From: Rummeliibacillus pycnus
GTDB taxonomy: Bacteria; Bacillota; Bacilli; Bacillales_A; Planococcaceae
Length of the DNA: 64,000 nt
Reading direction: 5' to 3'
Assembly (NCBI RefSeq): GCF_002884495.1
Contig: NZ_KZ614145.1
Coordinates: forward strand, 2,618,423-2,682,422
The stretch's first letter is position 1; each line of letters starts with the position of its first letter. Under the pieces are notes generated by a model. That model saw nothing but the letters and a program-made list of their open reading frames with translations, made no database searches and was not told where the DNA came from. This document shows, piece by piece, positions 4,852-11,596 of this stretch. The position numbers and the translations under genes are program-made.

Positions 4852-5325
4852 CTATTTAAACTGCTCAAAATGGTTAGCAACCCAACGACTTTGATTCTCC
4901 GCTATATATTGTTCCACAGCTATTAGCTTGTTCACTAATTCTTCCTTTGAGAGCTTCATGTACTTCTTTTTAACAACATCTATATTACGATTAGGAGAAA
5001 TCTTTCTTAAATTTGATTCATCAAATTTAAGAGGCGTTTTGAGCTTTTTACGAACCATATTTACTTTATATGTTTTGCTATGCTTTTTGTAATAGGTATA
5101 CAATTCATCATTACTCTTTATTGTATTGGGATGAATCCCTTTTTCTTGAGTGTCAAAATGTTTCGAATGCTGACTAATATTATGATAGGTTACAGGAATG
5201 CCTTGTTCGATAAGATATTCAATTGTTTCAATCCCAATGGAAACAGAACGCTCTTTACGTTGTTGATGTACTTTATCAAGCCATTCTCGATTATCTGAAT
5301 GGGTTTTGCTGTATGGATGGTTCAT
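4852..5325 (-). CDS. tnpC: Tn554 TnpC-like accessory transposition protein
   Basis: This 157-residue, basic, soluble protein overlaps the 3' end of the tnpB-like gene by 35 bp, so the two are probably translationally coupled. The layout fits the TnpC/DUF6262 type: an N-terminal basic helix (DKVHQQRKERSVSIGIETIEYL), a helix-turn-helix-like stretch with IPVTYHNISQHSK and HPNTIKSNDELY, and a C-terminal helical tail. In Tn554 TnpC is not essential but influences transposition frequency and orientation. Position as the third gene of the trio is the strongest evidence; sequence identity is weaker. There is a minor hairpin 20 nt downstream. Confidence 0.65.
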   Translation of the reverse strand: MNHPYSKTHSDNREWLDKVHQQRKERSVSIGIETIEYLIEQGIPVTYHNISQHSKHFDTQEKGIHPNTIKSNDELYTYYKKHSKTYKVNMVRKKLKTPLKFDESNLRKISPNRNIDVVKKKYMKLSKEELVNKLIAVEQYIAENQSRWVANHFEQFK

Positions 5326-7432
5326 GATGACGTTCCTCTCTATATTTTTTGATTAAATCAATTTCCTTAAGTTCGATTTTTGCCTGTTTTGCCATTTCTT
5401 TTGCTTTTCGAACTTCAACTTCTAATCCTAACTCTTTAAAACGCTTTTCCATATCTTTAGATAATTTTATAACCTCTAAAAGTTCTTCTTCTTGGCTTGG
5501 TTCGGGTACTTTGGCCTTACAGCCTAAACATTGCATTTTATTTGGGCATATATAATCAGTGACACATGTACCACCTAGTACTTTGTTGAATACACCAACT
5601 TTCTCCTTGTAATCATCTAATTCTTCTTGTAACTCTTTTGGGCTTCTTAAATACGCATCATCTATATCTACATAACTTGAAATCACATCTTGCAGTTCAC
5701 TAACTGATTCTGCAATTTGTGAAGGAGTTGGTGCTGAATAATAACCAGTAATCCTTAAATCTTTTTGATGCAATATTTTTGCTACAATATCAATCGGTAT
5801 TTTTTGACGTTGTACGGCTTCTGTAGCGAATGCATGGCGTAGGAGATGGCTTTTGATTTTTATAGGTTTTCCATTTTGTGTTTCAAAATATAGACCGTGT
5901 AGAAGAAAACGAATACAAGAGCTGATGGTAGCATTTAGCAGCCCCTTACCAGCATATTGAAAGAAATATGGTTTTGGTTCTTTGAATAAATGTTTTCTTT
6001 TATCACGATATATAATACTCGGAATCTTAGAGTTGGAATAATGTTCTTTCAACATCCTCGAAACAATTTGGATTAGCTCCATTGTTTGTTTACTAATATA
6101 GAATTCTTCTAAAGCATCCCTCCCTTTTGGAATAGCTTTAAAAGAGAAGTGGATTTTACCGTTTATTTTTTTAAATTCAATGCACTCTTTTGTATTATTG
6201 ATTTGCAATAGTTCATTTACTCTTGCACCAGTTGTTGTCAAAATATCGATTGCTAATAAACCGAAAGTACAGCCTGTATAAAACGGTTCTACATCAAATA
6301 GAAGACCCTTTACTTTGTCCTTATGTCTAGTTACGAAAGAAGAGTTTGTGATAATGCCTTTATGTGCCAAACTGAATGGGTTAGGAAGTTCTGATTTTTT
6401 TTCCACATAACCCCATAAAGATAAAAATTCAAGTCTATTTTCAAACACTTCTTTTGAGCAATTTTCGGGCAATTTCGAAAGAACGTTATTTTCAATTAAC
6501 TCATTAAACCACAGACCTTCCACTTCTGATTCACCATTTAAAGATTCAGCTTTTATAAATTCAAGAAAGTATGAGTTGTTTTTGTTGGAGTATGTTGATT
6601 TTCTTTTGGTAGCTGAACAAATAGTTTGTGAACTAAATTTTTCTTGATGATTAAGAACAAAAGATCGTTTATCCCATAACCGAAAATAAAAACGTTCTCC
6701 TACTCGTTCAGGCTCATCATATTGAAATTCTAATGGTAGTTCTAATGACTTTGTTTGAACATTCTCAATAGTCTCTCTGAATGCTTCTCGAAGTCTTTTT
6801 ATCTGATTCCATCGGAAATTTGCTTCTATACGAATTTTCGGAAGATTCGGCGCAATAGCATCTGTATCATCTTTACGAATAGTTTGGGCTTCCTCCTTGA
6901 CTATCTTATGTAAAGAAAATTCTCTTAGATCAAATTTAGGATCAATGAGTAAGAAATGCTTGAAGTATTTTCTTTCCTCAAGGTTAAGTTTCTGATGTAA
7001 CCATTTATTTGTTTCGTAGGTTAATATCTTATATTGACTAATGAACTGATATCTTTTGCTATTCGAATCATCTGGAAATATATCACCTTTTAGATACTTA
7101 TACCCATGTGTTTCTACATCAAATGATTCCATTGATGTTAAGTTAAAGACTGAAAAAATATCTTTGAATCTCACGTTAATAGTTCTAATTTTATTAGAAA
7201 TTGATTGATAATCTAAATTTCTATCAGTGCTAACGAATACCCCAAATAATAAATGATTTACCCATACAGTTTCTATACAATTATTATCTATGTAGTAAAG
7301 GAGTCTTTCATCAACTTTGTCGAGTAAAAATTCCTTTCGATTATTTTGTAGACACAGTAACTTAATATCTATTTTTCCATTCCATTGCTGATACCATTCT
7401 GATTTTGGTATCTGTTGTGCAGCTATATTCAC
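5291..7432 (-). CDS. tnpB: Tn554 TnpB-like tyrosine recombinase
   Basis: This 713-residue recombinase has its catalytic domain in the last 350 residues. The box I arginine is in TTTGARVNELLQI, and box II is HLLRHAFATEAVQ with the H-x-x-R pair. The second histidine is in ILHQKDLRI, and the nucleophile tyrosine lies in TGYYSAPT. After the active site, a Cys-rich tail (GGTCVTDYICPNKMQCLGCKAKVPEP) could bind a metal, followed by a charged helix. The long N-terminal half is poorly conserved but probably DNA-binding. Tn554 TnpB is similarly large. The start ATG is 2 nt from the end of tnpA, so the genes form one operon. All catalytic residues are present, so it may be active. Confidence 0.85.
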   Translation of the reverse strand: MNIAAQQIPKSEWYQQWNGKIDIKLLCLQNNRKEFLLDKVDERLLYYIDNNCIETVWVNHLLFGVFVSTDRNLDYQSISNKIRTINVRFKDIFSVFNLTSMESFDVETHGYKYLKGDIFPDDSNSKRYQFISQYKILTYETNKWLHQKLNLEERKYFKHFLLIDPKFDLREFSLHKIVKEEAQTIRKDDTDAIAPNLPKIRIEANFRWNQIKRLREAFRETIENVQTKSLELPLEFQYDEPERVGERFYFRLWDKRSFVLNHQEKFSSQTICSATKRKSTYSNKNNSYFLEFIKAESLNGESEVEGLWFNELIENNVLSKLPENCSKEVFENRLEFLSLWGYVEKKSELPNPFSLAHKGIITNSSFVTRHKDKVKGLLFDVEPFYTGCTFGLLAIDILTTTGARVNELLQINNTKECIEFKKINGKIHFSFKAIPKGRDALEEFYISKQTMELIQIVSRMLKEHYSNSKIPSIIYRDKRKHLFKEPKPYFFQYAGKGLLNATISSCIRFLLHGLYFETQNGKPIKIKSHLLRHAFATEAVQRQKIPIDIVAKILHQKDLRITGYYSAPTPSQIAESVSELQDVISSYVDIDDAYLRSPKELQEELDDYKEKVGVFNKVLGGTCVTDYICPNKMQCLGCKAKVPEPSQEEELLEVIKLSKDMEKRFKELGLEVEVRKAKEMAKQAKIELKEIDLIKKYREERHHEPSIQQNPFR

Positions 7433-7434
7433 AT

Positions 7435-8769
7435 TTACTCCAACCCTTCAATCAAATCTCTTAAATTTTCATCAAAAATTTCATCTTTTAGCGTTTGTGA
7501 TACTTGTAACTTTTTCGAAGATTTCCGTAGCTTATTATAATCGTTTTCATTTTGCTTCATTTGTTTTAACATTTGATCATGGGCTTCACGATGCTTTGTT
7601 TCATCAAAATAATGTTCATATACATTCATCGTATCAGGATTTCTCCACTTCATATATTTAATCAGTTCATTTTTCCGTTGCTCTATTTCAGATTCATTTA
7701 TTGAAATATTATAAATCTCTCGTAGTCTTGATGTTACGAACCAATGTCTTGCCTTATGAGGATTTAAACTTAACTTATTTGCATGCATTGCTCGATTCCA
7801 ATGATAGTACCAAGCATGATAAGTAAAAGGAGTACCATTAGATGATAAAAAAATAGGAGCACCATCGGATAATTCATGAGAACATAAATGATCTTTATCA
7901 AAGAATTTCCGTTCGGTATCAATGTAGTGAAATAACCGTTTAACGGTGTCTTTACTGAATCGTAGAAACTTTACTTTTTTCCCATAACTACCTTTGTTAA
8001 AAGTAATAACTTCTTGATGGCTTTTTCTATTTCGATAATCTCCAATAGTTAATTCAATAATTTCAGATGCTCTTGCACCTGTTTCAAATAGCATACGGGC
8101 AATGATCATTTCTCGTTGTGACCAATTTACTTTATTTCCAGCTTGATATACTTGATAAGGGAGATTAATATCATCAATAATTTGTGGTTGCCATTCTTCG
8201 TTAATGATTTTAAAATAGGAATCTGTTAATCTGCGATGCATTAAAGGATCTTCTGTTCCGGCAACAGAAGGCATTCTAGGTTTATCAACTCGGACACCGT
8301 TTATTTCTTCTTTGTATCGATTCGATATAGCTTGACCATCAATTAATGGATTATTATAAGTATATTGATTTAATCGGATCATTGCTTTATAAAATGATTT
8401 TAATGCTGATAAAAAGCGACTAACTGTATTTGGACTTTTATTGGTTAGATTTATAAAACGAAATGATTCTCGATCTCGAATCTTGCAGTTCATTTCATGC
8501 ATTAAATAATCTTCAACAACTACTCGTATCTTTTCTTCTGCATCATTCCATTGCACTCGTTCACCTTGAAAATTACTTTCTTCCTCTAACCATTTGAAAA
8601 AGGGAAGTAAACAGTTTAAGTAAGATGTTGCAGAACTCTTATCGATTCTTCCTAAACAATCATTATAATAATCTGTTAGCGGTAAAAATGGTTGGTTTTC
8701 TTTAAATACTAAAAGCTTATACTTGCTTTCTATATGCTTTGGGCAGTATTCATACCAATACAAAAGCAA
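7435..8769 (-). CDS. tnpA: Tn554 TnpA-like tyrosine recombinase
   Basis: This 444-residue protein is the first gene of the trio. The N-terminal half is an SAM-like core-binding domain (YLNCLLPFFKWLEEES, SRFLSALKSFYKAMIRL). The catalytic part has the box I arginine in FETGARASEIIEL, HKARHWFVTSRL in box II, and Tyr in NVYEHYFDET. KWRN stands where many integrases have a histidine, a Trp substitution known in this superfamily. Phage integrases are usually single; the operonic companion of a second and third protein argues for a Tn554-type element. The start ATG has a GGAGGT site 8 nt upstream. The intergenic region before it (8770-9101) is AT-rich. Confidence 0.82.
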   Translation of the reverse strand: MLLYWYEYCPKHIESKYKLLVFKENQPFLPLTDYYNDCLGRIDKSSATSYLNCLLPFFKWLEEESNFQGERVQWNDAEEKIRVVVEDYLMHEMNCKIRDRESFRFINLTNKSPNTVSRFLSALKSFYKAMIRLNQYTYNNPLIDGQAISNRYKEEINGVRVDKPRMPSVAGTEDPLMHRRLTDSYFKIINEEWQPQIIDDINLPYQVYQAGNKVNWSQREMIIARMLFETGARASEIIELTIGDYRNRKSHQEVITFNKGSYGKKVKFLRFSKDTVKRLFHYIDTERKFFDKDHLCSHELSDGAPIFLSSNGTPFTYHAWYYHWNRAMHANKLSLNPHKARHWFVTSRLREIYNISINESEIEQRKNELIKYMKWRNPDTMNVYEHYFDETKHREAHDQMLKQMKQNENDYNKLRKSSKKLQVSQTLKDEIFDENLRDLIEGLE

Positions 8770-8859
8770 TCACCTCCACAATTAAAAACAACTATTTTAC
8801 TTTAACTTTTTTCTATGTAATATGGTACATACTTTCTTTAATAAATTGCACTAAACAAA

Positions 8860-8900
8860 AAAATGTACACCACTAAAATTTATTTAGTAATGTACATTTT
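8860..8900. repeat. Imperfect inverted repeat between tnpA and the exporter
   Basis: An 18-nt arm at 8860-8877 pairs with 8883-8900 (16 of 18 match, 5-nt loop) and is followed by T/A-rich DNA. It may be a terminator between divergent units or a recombinase binding site. The remainder of 8770-9101 shows only a possible 19-residue ORF on the minus strand, with no good support. Confidence 0.5.
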
Positions 8901-9101
8901 AATAATATGTGCAACATTATAAACAAGATATGATGAAGTCAAGCATCATGTACAATTACTTTTCTTTAATGTTACAGAACAAAGTGCCATCTTTTTGTTT
9001 TACTACACTTTTTTATTGACCTTACTGAAAAGGGGATGGATACACCGAACGACTTTTTTCATCTTCAAATCTCCATTTAAATAATCCTATTTTTTATAAA
9101 A

Positions 9102-9130
9102 TTTACATTATTTATATTTTCGTATGATAT
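9102..9130 (+). promoter_or_regulatory. Candidate promoter of the exporter leader
   Basis: A TTTACA -35-like hexamer at 9102-9107 is followed by overlapping -10 candidates TATGAT (9123-9128, 15 bp spacing) and TGATAT (9125-9130, 17 bp). It is positioned 35-60 nt before the leader peptide start. Exact start site not determinable. Confidence 0.4.
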
Positions 9131-9164
9131 ACTGTACTTACTTTTACTTAAGGAGTGAACGAAT

Positions 9165-9218
9165 ATGAAAAGCTTATTTCAAACTTTCAACATAAACTCG
9201 GAGGGCATACTGTCTTAA
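9165..9218 (+). CDS. 17-residue leader peptide of the MFS exporter
   Basis: The ORF MKSLFQTFNINSEGILS has its own AAGGAG site (9150-9155). Its last codons contain the first of three complementary blocks that can hide or free the exporter's ribosome binding site. Leaders like this precede erm, cat, tet(K)/(L) and fexA genes, where an antibiotic-stalled ribosome opens the downstream hairpin. Stalling drug and codon are unknown. The reading frame is too small for standard gene callers; the support is the RBS plus the paired structure. Confidence 0.7.
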   Translation: MKSLFQTFNINSEGILS

Positions 9219-9257
9219 TATTGAGAGTTTGACCTCCGATATTCTACTATTCGGAGG
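9198..9257 (+). promoter_or_regulatory. Translational attenuator (three alternating blocks)
   Basis: Block 1 TCGGAGG (9198-9204, inside the leader) and block 3 TCGGAGG (9251-9257, the exporter RBS) are both complementary to block 2 CCTCCGA (9233-9239). Pairing 2-3 sequesters the RBS; pairing 1-2 frees it. Since block 1 is translated, ribosome position on the leader should select between the states. Confidence 0.7.
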
Positions 9258-9263
9258 GAAAAA

Positions 9264-10457
9264 TTGAAAACACAAACTATCTATTTTACAATCACTAGTC
9301 TACGCTCTCTCTTTATACAAATGGTTTTTACGATTAATGCCATTTACTATGTTGTGAATGCAAACCTTAACCCACTACAACTTGTTCTAATTGGAACAAT
9401 TATGGAAGCTACGATTTTTTTATTCGAAATGCCTACTGGATTAGTTGCTGATCATTTTGGACGCAAACATTCATTATTCATCGGTACTCTAATCGTAGGA
9501 ATTGCACATCTACTTGAAGGTGTTTTTCCATCATTTTGGTCAATTGCTTTTGCTTCAGGACTTTGGGGATTAGGTTGGACATTTATTAGCGGGGCGGAAG
9601 AGGCTTGGATTGCAGATGAGTTAGATGGAAAAAATCTTGATTATGTATTCTTGAAGGGTGCTCAGTTTGAATCGTTAGGACAATTTATCGGTATCATTCT
9701 TAGTGTTTGTATAGCCATACTATATTCAGTAAAAGTTTCGATTATTATTGCAGGTTCTATGCTTATATTACTTGCTTTTGCCATGTTATTTTTTATGCAT
9801 GAAACAAAGTTTATACAAATCACAAGTATGAGAAATGTTTCGGCAATTCGACATTTGAGGAAAACAATTAGAGCAGGTGCAAAACAAATTCAAGGCAATA
9901 AAATACTTGTAAGTATAGCCATAATTACCATATTTTCAGGATTAGCAAGTGAGGGATTTGACCGATTATGGGGAGCACACTTCATAGAGGATTTTCATGT
10001 ATCTGAGGAAAAATCTATCTATTGGTTTGGTGCATTTTATGCCACTACATTTTTGCTAAATATTATTGTTTTATATTTTGTAGAACGTCATTTTAACAAA
10101 AATTATCCTCTGGTTCTGTTCATTACAAATAGTTTGTTAATCATTATGGTACTACTCTTTGCTTTTAGCTCAAATTTCGCAATTGCTGTTATAACCTATT
10201 TGATGGCTAGCTCATTACGTAAAATTCACTATCCTTTAATAAGTATTATGACAAATGAAAGATTAGAGCCTAAAGGTCGTGCTACTATTTTATCTATGTT
10301 CGGACAATTAGATGCAATAGGTCAAATTTTGGGTGGCCCTATTATTGGAACATTTGCATTGTATACAACGATTGCAAGTGGTATCGCATCATCTGTGATA
10401 CTGATCTTACCAATTCTACTATTTTTATTACGAATGTTAAGAGAATATCATCTATAA
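9264..10457 (+). CDS. MFS drug exporter (DHA3-like)
   Basis: The 397-residue protein has about 12 hydrophobic helices. The MFS motif A appears between helices 2 and 3 as GLVADHFGRKHSL, preceded by PLQLVLIGTIMEATIFLFEMPT. The start is TTG, chosen because the GGAGGG site lies 5 nt upstream. Similar DHA3 proteins export tetracyclines, macrolides or other drugs with proton antiport. Substrate is not predictable here, but the attenuator strongly suggests a ribosome-targeting antibiotic. The gene is a likely cargo of the adjacent transposon. It ends at a good terminator. Confidence 0.85.
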   Translation: MKTQTIYFTITSLRSLFIQMVFTINAIYYVVNANLNPLQLVLIGTIMEATIFLFEMPTGLVADHFGRKHSLFIGTLIVGIAHLLEGVFPSFWSIAFASGLWGLGWTFISGAEEAWIADELDGKNLDYVFLKGAQFESLGQFIGIILSVCIAILYSVKVSIIIAGSMLILLAFAMLFFMHETKFIQITSMRNVSAIRHLRKTIRAGAKQIQGNKILVSIAIITIFSGLASEGFDRLWGAHFIEDFHVSEEKSIYWFGAFYATTFLLNIIVLYFVERHFNKNYPLVLFITNSLLIIMVLLFAFSSNFAIAVITYLMASSLRKIHYPLISIMTNERLEPKGRATILSMFGQLDAIGQILGGPIIGTFALYTTIASGIASSVILILPILLFLLRMLREYHL

Positions 10458-10467
10458 CATTGCAATA

Positions 10468-10509
10468 AAAATGCCACGTTAGTCAAATAAATGATAAACG
10501 TGGCATTTT
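10468..10509. terminator. Bidirectional terminator between exporter and nrdF
   Basis: A 13-bp perfect stem (10468-10480 with 10497-10509) closes a 16-nt loop, flanked by A and T runs. It serves the exporter on the plus strand and nrdF on the minus strand. Confidence 0.8.
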
Positions 10510-10555
10510 CTCTTATTAAATTTAGGATTTGTTCATTTGTTCAAATCTATGCTAT

Positions 10556-11596
10556 TTATAATTCATCAAATCCATTATCTTGAACATTCACTTTTACATA
10601 TTGGCGTGAGCGTTGTTCAAAGAAGTCTGTTTTGCCAAGATCAACATCTTCGTAAGCTTTAATCCATTTCATCGGATTTTTACGATAGCCTTCAAAAGGT
10701 CGCTCGTAACCTAGTTGTGCACAGCGAACATTGGCGTAAAAGTAAATATAGTCTTCTACATCTTCACTATCTAAACCATCTATTTTATCACCGATGACTT
10801 CTCGGCCCCATTCGATTTCAAGTTCTGCTGCTTCACGGAAAATAGCTTCTACTTTCCTTGCACGCTCAGGTGTATCATATTCCGGATACTCTTCTAATAA
10901 TTCCTTATATATTTTTACGAATAAATCAACATGTAATTGTTCGTCGCGATTAATATAGTTAATCATCGTACTAGTAGCAACCATTTTTTGATTGCGTGCT
11001 AGATGGTAGAAGAAAGAAAAACCTGAATAGAAGAATAAGCCTTCTAAAATCACATCATAAACAATTGAATCGAGCATATGTTCAACAGTTGGTTCTTCAG
11101 CAAATTGTTTATACCCTTTAATGACAAAATCATTACGTTTTTCAAGTACAGGTTCAGTACGCCAAAAATCAAATACTTCATCCTGCTCATCTTTCGAAAC
11201 AAGGCTAGATAGTATATAAGAATAGGAATGATTATGAATCACTTCTTGTTGTGCCAAAATAATCATCAATGCATTGAGACTCGAATCTGTTAAATAATCA
11301 GCAATTCTCCCTGCATAATCTGTTTGGATACTATCAAGTAATGCAAGTAAACCAATAATTTTCTTAAATGCTTGCTTTTCATCAGCAGTTAGCTGTGGAA
11401 ACTGTTTAATATCATTGCTCATATTAATCTCAAACGGTGTCCAGAAGTTGCCTAGCATTTTTTTATATTTTGGATATGCCCAGTTGAACTGAACATCATC
11501 CCAATTTAGTATATTTGAAGAACGACCATTGACGATTTTAGTCGAACGATTGGGTGCTTCCTTATCCATTAACAAACGCTTTTTTACTTCAGCCAT
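10556..11596 (-). CDS. nrdF: Ribonucleoside-diphosphate reductase beta subunit
   Basis: This 346-residue class I small subunit builds the radical that nrdE uses to make deoxyribonucleotides. All di-metal ligands are recognisable: Asp88 (LLDSIQ), Glu118 and His121 (QQEVIHNH), a Glu in VILEGLFFYS, and Glu-x-x-His in NRDEQLH. The radical tyrosine is Tyr125 (HSYSY), four residues after His121 as in E. coli. The C-terminal tail that docks on the large subunit is NVQDNGFDEL. It lies 15 nt behind nrdE in one operon controlled by a cobalamin riboswitch. No nrdI is seen nearby, so class Ia versus Ib is not settled. Confidence 0.95.
   Translation of the reverse strand: MAEVKKRLLMDKEAPNRSTKIVNGRSSNILNWDDVQFNWAYPKYKKMLGNFWTPFEINMSNDIKQFPQLTADEKQAFKKIIGLLALLDSIQTDYAGRIADYLTDSSLNALMIILAQQEVIHNHSYSYILSSLVSKDEQDEVFDFWRTEPVLEKRNDFVIKGYKQFAEEPTVEHMLDSIVYDVILEGLFFYSGFSFFYHLARNQKMVATSTMINYINRDEQLHVDLFVKIYKELLEEYPEYDTPERARKVEAIFREAAELEIEWGREVIGDKIDGLDSEDVEDYIYFYANVRCAQLGYERPFEGYRKNPMKWIKAYEDVDLGKTDFFEQRSRQYVKVNVQDNGFDEL

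Follow-up and report, generated by a model that had tools for sequence, protein, structure and literature searches.

In Rummeliibacillus pycnus, a short leader open reading frame (ORF) with its own Shine-Dalgarno (SD) sequence lies directly 5' of the gene for an MFS efflux pump, an arrangement that is kept in homologues. Our analysis indicates that this leader region is probably a translational attenuator that senses ribosome position, of the same working type as the attenuators of tet(K) and tet(L), and that tetracycline is its most likely inducer. The presence of an attenuator of some kind is very likely, and as to the drug we lean toward tetracycline. From sequence comparison and computed folding, we infer attenuator function in cells, induction by tetracycline, and export of tetracycline by the pump. 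The elements of the locus are listed below; positions are those of the window, i.e., the whole stretch of 64,000 nucleotides that was analyzed.

9125 to 9133, + strand: putative extended -10 promoter element TGaTATACT; weak, from sequence reading only, and absent from the output of the consensus scan
9150 to 9155, + strand: leader SD AAGGAG, from the sequence; an SD-like motif also lies 5' of the leader in the homologues listed
9165 to 9218, + strand: leader ORF MKSLFQTFNINSEGILS, 17 codons plus TAA, from the sequence; 27 of the 30 aligned leaders have this length
9179 to 9190, + strand: 5' arm of outer stem A, partner of 9221 to 9232, in the minimum-energy and centroid folds
9198 to 9204, + strand: block 1, TCGGAGG, an SD mimic within leader codons 12 to 14, from the sequence and a GGRGG register kept in 30 of 30 leaders
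9221 to 9232, + strand: 3' arm of outer stem A, from the fold
9233 to 9239, + strand: block 2, CCTCCGA, an anti-SD and the partner of block 1 or block 3, from the sequence, the fold, and coevolution with block 1
9251 to 9257, + strand: block 3, TCGGAGG, the pump SD, from the sequence and the fold; its opening cost varies with ribosome position
9264 to 10457, + strand: MFS efflux pump gene, TTG start, 397 amino acids, related to TetA(P)/Tet(40), from the sequence, profiles, and the tree

Leader architecture and fold

By direct reading of the sequence, the leader begins with ATG at 9165 and ends with TAA at 9216 to 9218, and its stop is separated from the pump start by 45 nt. The original prediction had proposed a 17-codon leader that has its own ribosome binding site and carries TCGGAGG, followed by a complementary CCTCCGA and by an exporter ribosome binding site that is again TCGGAGG; all of these elements are found at the positions listed above.

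The minimum-energy fold of the RNA is composed of two elements, stem A around block 1 and a hairpin of blocks 2 and 3 (the 2:3 hairpin) that hides the pump SD. In this predicted structure, stem A encloses block 1 and would keep it looped in ribosome-free RNA. The fold of the 151-nt RNA has a z score of -2.63, and 3 of 200 shuffles were equally good. Stem A (9179 to 9190 with 9221 to 9232) is an element that the original prediction did not mention. No curated RNA family in Rfam matched positions 9050 to 9350 at E values of up to 1.

The 2:3 hairpin could also be read as a terminator, with stalling on the leader permitting read-through, and transcription attenuation is indeed used by other leader-controlled resistance genes, e.g., tetM (PMC5418344, partial text). 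At this locus it is very improbable: the hairpin is followed by GAAAAATTG, in which there is no T run, and no terminator-like site was found on the + strand within 8770 to 10560, including the leader-to-pump interval, in a scan for sites of the hairpin/T-run type.

Because SD motifs are common, the blocks might be there by chance or by coding coincidence, a reading to which we give a negligible probability. The arrangement GGAGG-CCTCC-GGAGG at comparable spacing occurs once in the 64-kb window, versus a mean of 0.01 in 100 shuffles, and a related three-block pattern occurs once across the 3.85-Mb genome and 0 times in a reversed control. Coevolution of the blocks and their fixed register (see below) likewise count against chance, and the strongest evidence against it is conservation 5' of pump orthologues.

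Predicted effect of ribosome position on the pump SD

For a ribosome at each leader codon, we disallowed pairing under a footprint of P-site -14 to +16 and computed what it costs to open the pump SD. In the window, this cost is 0.9 to 1.7 kcal/mol with the ribosome on codons 1 to 7 and 7.1 to 11.1 kcal/mol with the ribosome on codons 8 to 17, while it is 3.8 kcal/mol without a ribosome. The observed contrast of 8.5 was reached by 0 of 300 shuffles (mean, -0.6; largest, 3.0). Other footprint sizes shift the step by one to three codons, so that the exact switch codon is not fixed by the mask method, and with small masks the cost at codons 1 and 2 stays at about 5; otherwise, the switch is stable to mask size and context. 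The calculation predicts that pairing hides the pump SD and that a ribosome on particular leader codons uncovers it.

The set used for ribosome masking comprised 37 leaders. The cost on late codons (9 to 16) exceeds that on early codons (2 to 7) by at least 2 kcal/mol in 29 of the 33 long leaders, a count that becomes 31 of 33 when the correct SD is used for L009 and L020. The largest rise in cost falls between codons 7 and 8 in 23 of the 33 and between codons 6 and 7 in 7. Switching is weak in L030 (2.7 to 3.9) and in L022, which has no block 1, and in the short leaders L040 to L043 the cost climbs towards the leader ends. The ribosome-free RNA is weakly closed in several homologues (0.8 in L006 and L017; 1.0 in L028).

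We propose the following mechanism. Without drug, ribosomes would translate the 17-codon leader; a ribosome on codons 8 to 17 would cover block 1, block 2 would then pair with block 3, and the pump SD would be hidden (OFF). In this genus, stem A would loop out block 1 and so keep ribosome-free RNA mostly OFF as well. A drug-induced stall on the start codon or anywhere in codons 1 to 7 would leave block 1 free and stem A opened, and the free block 1 would pair with block 2, thereby exposing the pump SD (ON). Of the classic drug-inducible attenuator that had originally been proposed, what stands is a conserved translational attenuator in which block 2 is predicted to choose between block 1 and the pump SD, with a switch in the computed folding and no terminator in the scanned interval. 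Its logic, however, does not appear to be of the erm type, since the pump would be OFF when block 1 is masked and ON when the ribosome stalls before reaching it (codons 1 to 7), as the same calculation gives for tet(K) and tet(L).

A termination-reinitiation model exists for B. subtilis tetA(L). If it applied here, tetracycline would make it easier for ribosomes that have completed the leader to get to the pump start. In the calculation, the SD opens again with a ribosome on the last codon in L010, L012, L015, and L016 (0.3 to 2.1) and in tet(L) (1.9), and in leaders of this kind termination might also activate the pump. Furthermore, a GGAGG lies 11 nt upstream of the leader stop codon in 27 of 30 leaders and could hold a terminating ribosome. 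In the window, however, the SD is tightly OFF with a ribosome on the last codon (10.9), and the 45 nt between leader stop and pump start likewise argue against such coupling, which we therefore regard as unlikely compared with the sensing of a stall early in the leader.

Conservation of the leader region

The pump was found at E values of up to 1e-80 in 29 of 261 genomes of the order, and in all 29 a leader ORF with an SD lies 5' of the orthologous pump. The leader is within the nearest 220 nt of the pump in 28 of them, and the three blocks are all in place in 27. The exceptions are G032 (L021), where an insertion parts the intact leader and block 1 from blocks 2 and 3 and the leader lies further upstream, and G099 (L022), where the leader ORF is kept, the SD hairpin is retained, and the GGAGG block is gone. 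In L032, block 2 is reduced to CCCTC. The arrangement is also present in all six loci of another family, f16. A shorter form, with a leader of 8 to 11 codons, exists in 4 of 4 Bacillaceae loci (L040 to L043); read by eye, block 1 comes right after the leader stop in these loci, and in L040 and L042 an SD-like part still lies at about nt 35 to 39 from the AUG. The upstream sequence in a genome of the same genus (G051; L008) and in the Rummeliibacillus locus L038 is the same as that of the window.

A sequence model built from 30 such leader regions (R1) gave 28 matches at E values below 1e-5 in 250 family genomes, all of them 5' of a pump orthologue or a broken copy, and most of the 28 match by construction; a further 15 matches in one scan and 16 in another were weaker. 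In one genome (G113; L079), stops interrupt the reading frame of the pump, and the leader and its three blocks are intact. Putative phage copies occur in three records (about 33% identity).

The three-block pattern is absent from 19 of 19 loci in a group of pumps of 36 to 40% identity (L060 to L078). These loci share a box like CGCAAATTTGGACAAG, close to the SD and some 20 nt ahead of a TATAAT-like element; this box would point to a different kind of control. In the titles and abstract openings searched, a scope with subscription journals mostly outside it, no attenuator was described 5' of this pump lineage.

The alignment of 30 leaders omits the near copies L012 and L055, L022 with its missing block 1, and the short-form leaders L040 to L043; L021 and L056 are in neither the alignment nor the mask set. 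Among the 30 leaders, the core CGGAG:CTCCG is almost invariant and uninformative for covariation, so that the case for covariation depends on the flanking pairs and on a small number of clades. Six nucleotides into block 1, the position pairs as C-G in 14 leaders, U-A in 9, and U-G in 2 and is unpaired in 5 (n = 30). The duplex between the block 1 and block 2 regions comes to -20.2 within a sequence versus -15.9 across clades, and when block 2 is reassigned among seven clades, which were picked by hand, the observed mean is attained by a single one of the 5040 permutations, the true one.

Fixed register and variable peptide

GGRGG starts at leader nucleotide 36 in all 30 aligned leaders, and codon 13 is Glu in 15 of 16 representative leaders. 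Leader amino acids 2 to 10 vary widely among clades, which makes peptide-specific arrest unlikely. Judged by these alignments, it looks as though selection acts on RNA and position, not on the peptide. The nt 36 register with GAG as codon 13 is common to tet(K), tet(L), and the pump lineage, without detectable sequence homology. We put forward, tentatively, the possibility that the distance from the AUG to block 1 is a physical ruler, i.e., that these leaders are general sensors of start-codon stalling that are set by the ribosome footprint and read position rather than peptide, being either independently reached or a portable module.

Comparison with known leader systems

The tet(L) leader has three blocks, too, with block 1 at codons 13 and 14 (GAG-GGA), a complementary block 2 past the stop codon, and block 3 as the SD. 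In tet(L) leaders from plasmids (L057 and L058, whose leader regions are identical) and genomes (L132 and L133), the computed switch lies between codons 7 and 8, as it does here; L134 to L136 are outside the computed set. The tet(K) leader of pT181 (NC_001393; L151) has 16 codons (MKCLFKNLGNLYEVKE), with GAG as codon 13, and like the leader described here it has three blocks, a pump with a TTG start, and a computed step from codon 7 to codon 8, whereas its block sequences differ (GAGGTGA/TCACCTC/AAGAGGT). Both the peptide and the RNA of the tet(L) leader are not recognizably related in sequence to the leader here. R1 gave no match in the tet(L) loci L057 to L059 at E values of up to 1, and PF08050 (Tet_res_leader) had 0 matches in the window's genome at E values of up to 0.001 and again of up to 0.1; as a control, this profile does match in B. 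subtilis. Tet(L), with 14 helices, falls into another MFS group, and the tet(K) pump belongs to a lineage different from that of the pump here. The leader region is predicted by the folding calculations to work like the tet(K) and tet(L) attenuators; the sequence searches found no sign of common descent with them.

The tet(L) leader has been described as part of inducible tetracycline resistance (PMC9387203, partial text). In an Enterococcus faecium plasmid record (L059, 1801 to 1860), the tet(L) leader has a stop at codon 5; 289 of 348 records are 95 to 99% identical to the query and might carry the same codon-5 stop.

In the erm(C) and cat types, arrest is peptide specific, and it is the stalled ribosome that covers the competing arm; in the four-segment erm type, it is segment 1 that the stalled ribosome masks. 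Here, the residues before block 1 are unconserved, and the stall would have to be upstream of block 1. The likeness to erm(C)-type and cat-type attenuators is that leader stalling uncovers a hidden SD (PMC5418344, partial text); the same source surveys attenuators of other resistance genes, both translational and transcriptional. E. coli toiL-topAI is alike in that a short upstream ORF senses start-codon stalling by tetracycline and retapamulin (PMC12121999, partial text), but it involves another gene, host, and RNA, and toiL senses several stall positions.

The pump and its genomic context

Among named pumps, TetA(P) and Tet(40) come closest to this one, both by profile and in the tree. The pump scores far below the curated NCBIfam cutoff for TetA(P) (273.2 of 750 bits) and also below that for Tet(40) (227 of 800 bits), and across the aligned part it shares 38 to 39% identity with TetA(P). 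Single copies of TetA(P) and Tet(40) (L049 and L050) show about 38% and 33% identity, respectively, and upstream of these two copies no leader with three blocks was seen. In a tree of 32 proteins, 17 attenuator-bearing pumps form one group (100/99), next to which stand TetA(P), Tet(40), and one protein from clostridia (85/83), with long branches that include Tet(40). The pumps make up a clade of their own, and its placement as the sister of TetA(P)/Tet(40) has moderate support.

In Rummeliibacillus and Viridibacillus, all four loci compared (L035 to L038) have the pump close to nrdB-nrdA, and Tn554-like transposase genes had no match beside it there. In L039 to L043, neither nrdB-nrdA nor Tn554-like genes were found by the pump. 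Its location near nrdB-nrdA without Tn554-like genes suggests that the pump is an old chromosomal gene.

In the window, the leader is separated from a nitroreductase gene by three genes on the - strand (4852 to 8769), two for tyrosine recombinases and one for a small protein, whose arrangement we take to resemble tnpA-tnpB-tnpC of Tn554. The idea that the pump is cargo of a Tn554-like element was rejected on account of the four nrdB-nrdA loci without transposase genes.

The likely inducing drug

In E. coli, ribosomes exposed to tetracycline stall on start codons, and their front edge then lies at +16 to +18 (PMC12121999, partial text); with such an edge, nt 36 to 42 would stay free under a start-codon stall. 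This start-codon stalling, together with TetA(P) and Tet(40) as the nearest named relatives, makes tetracycline the most likely inducer. The original prediction, which did not recognize the leader peptide among well-known ones, had considered a possibly new inducing drug; that suggestion loses its footing, given that leader residues 2 to 10 vary and that the nearest named relatives of the pump are tetracycline pumps.

The same attenuator may instead respond to a different ribosome-targeting drug with an early stall (a pleuromutilin, lincosamide, phenicol, or macrolide), which the pump would then export. What is sensed would be ribosome position, not a drug, and the pump shares just 38 to 39% identity with TetA(P) in the aligned part; moreover, retapamulin, too, stalls at start codons and induces E. 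coli toiL (PMC12121999, partial text). However, the closest named pumps are tetracycline pumps, and the same register is present in the tet(K) and tet(L) leaders, so that we consider another drug a minority possibility, somewhat unlikely but not remote, and retain tetracycline as the candidate.

Implications

If the proposed reading is true, an uncharacterized chromosomal pump lineage of environmental Bacillota would be an intrinsic resistance gene that is inducible and has a clearly predicted drug, and tetracycline-sensing leaders would be recognizable where the peptide profile PF08050 finds nothing. Because the 36-nt register is common to this lineage and to tet(K) and tet(L), it becomes testable whether attenuators read the peptide or only the position at which the ribosome stops. 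If the more tentative ruler reading were also true, tetracycline resistance pumps would share one sensing principle, and leaders with GGAGG at nucleotide 36 elsewhere would flag unrecognized inducible resistance genes.
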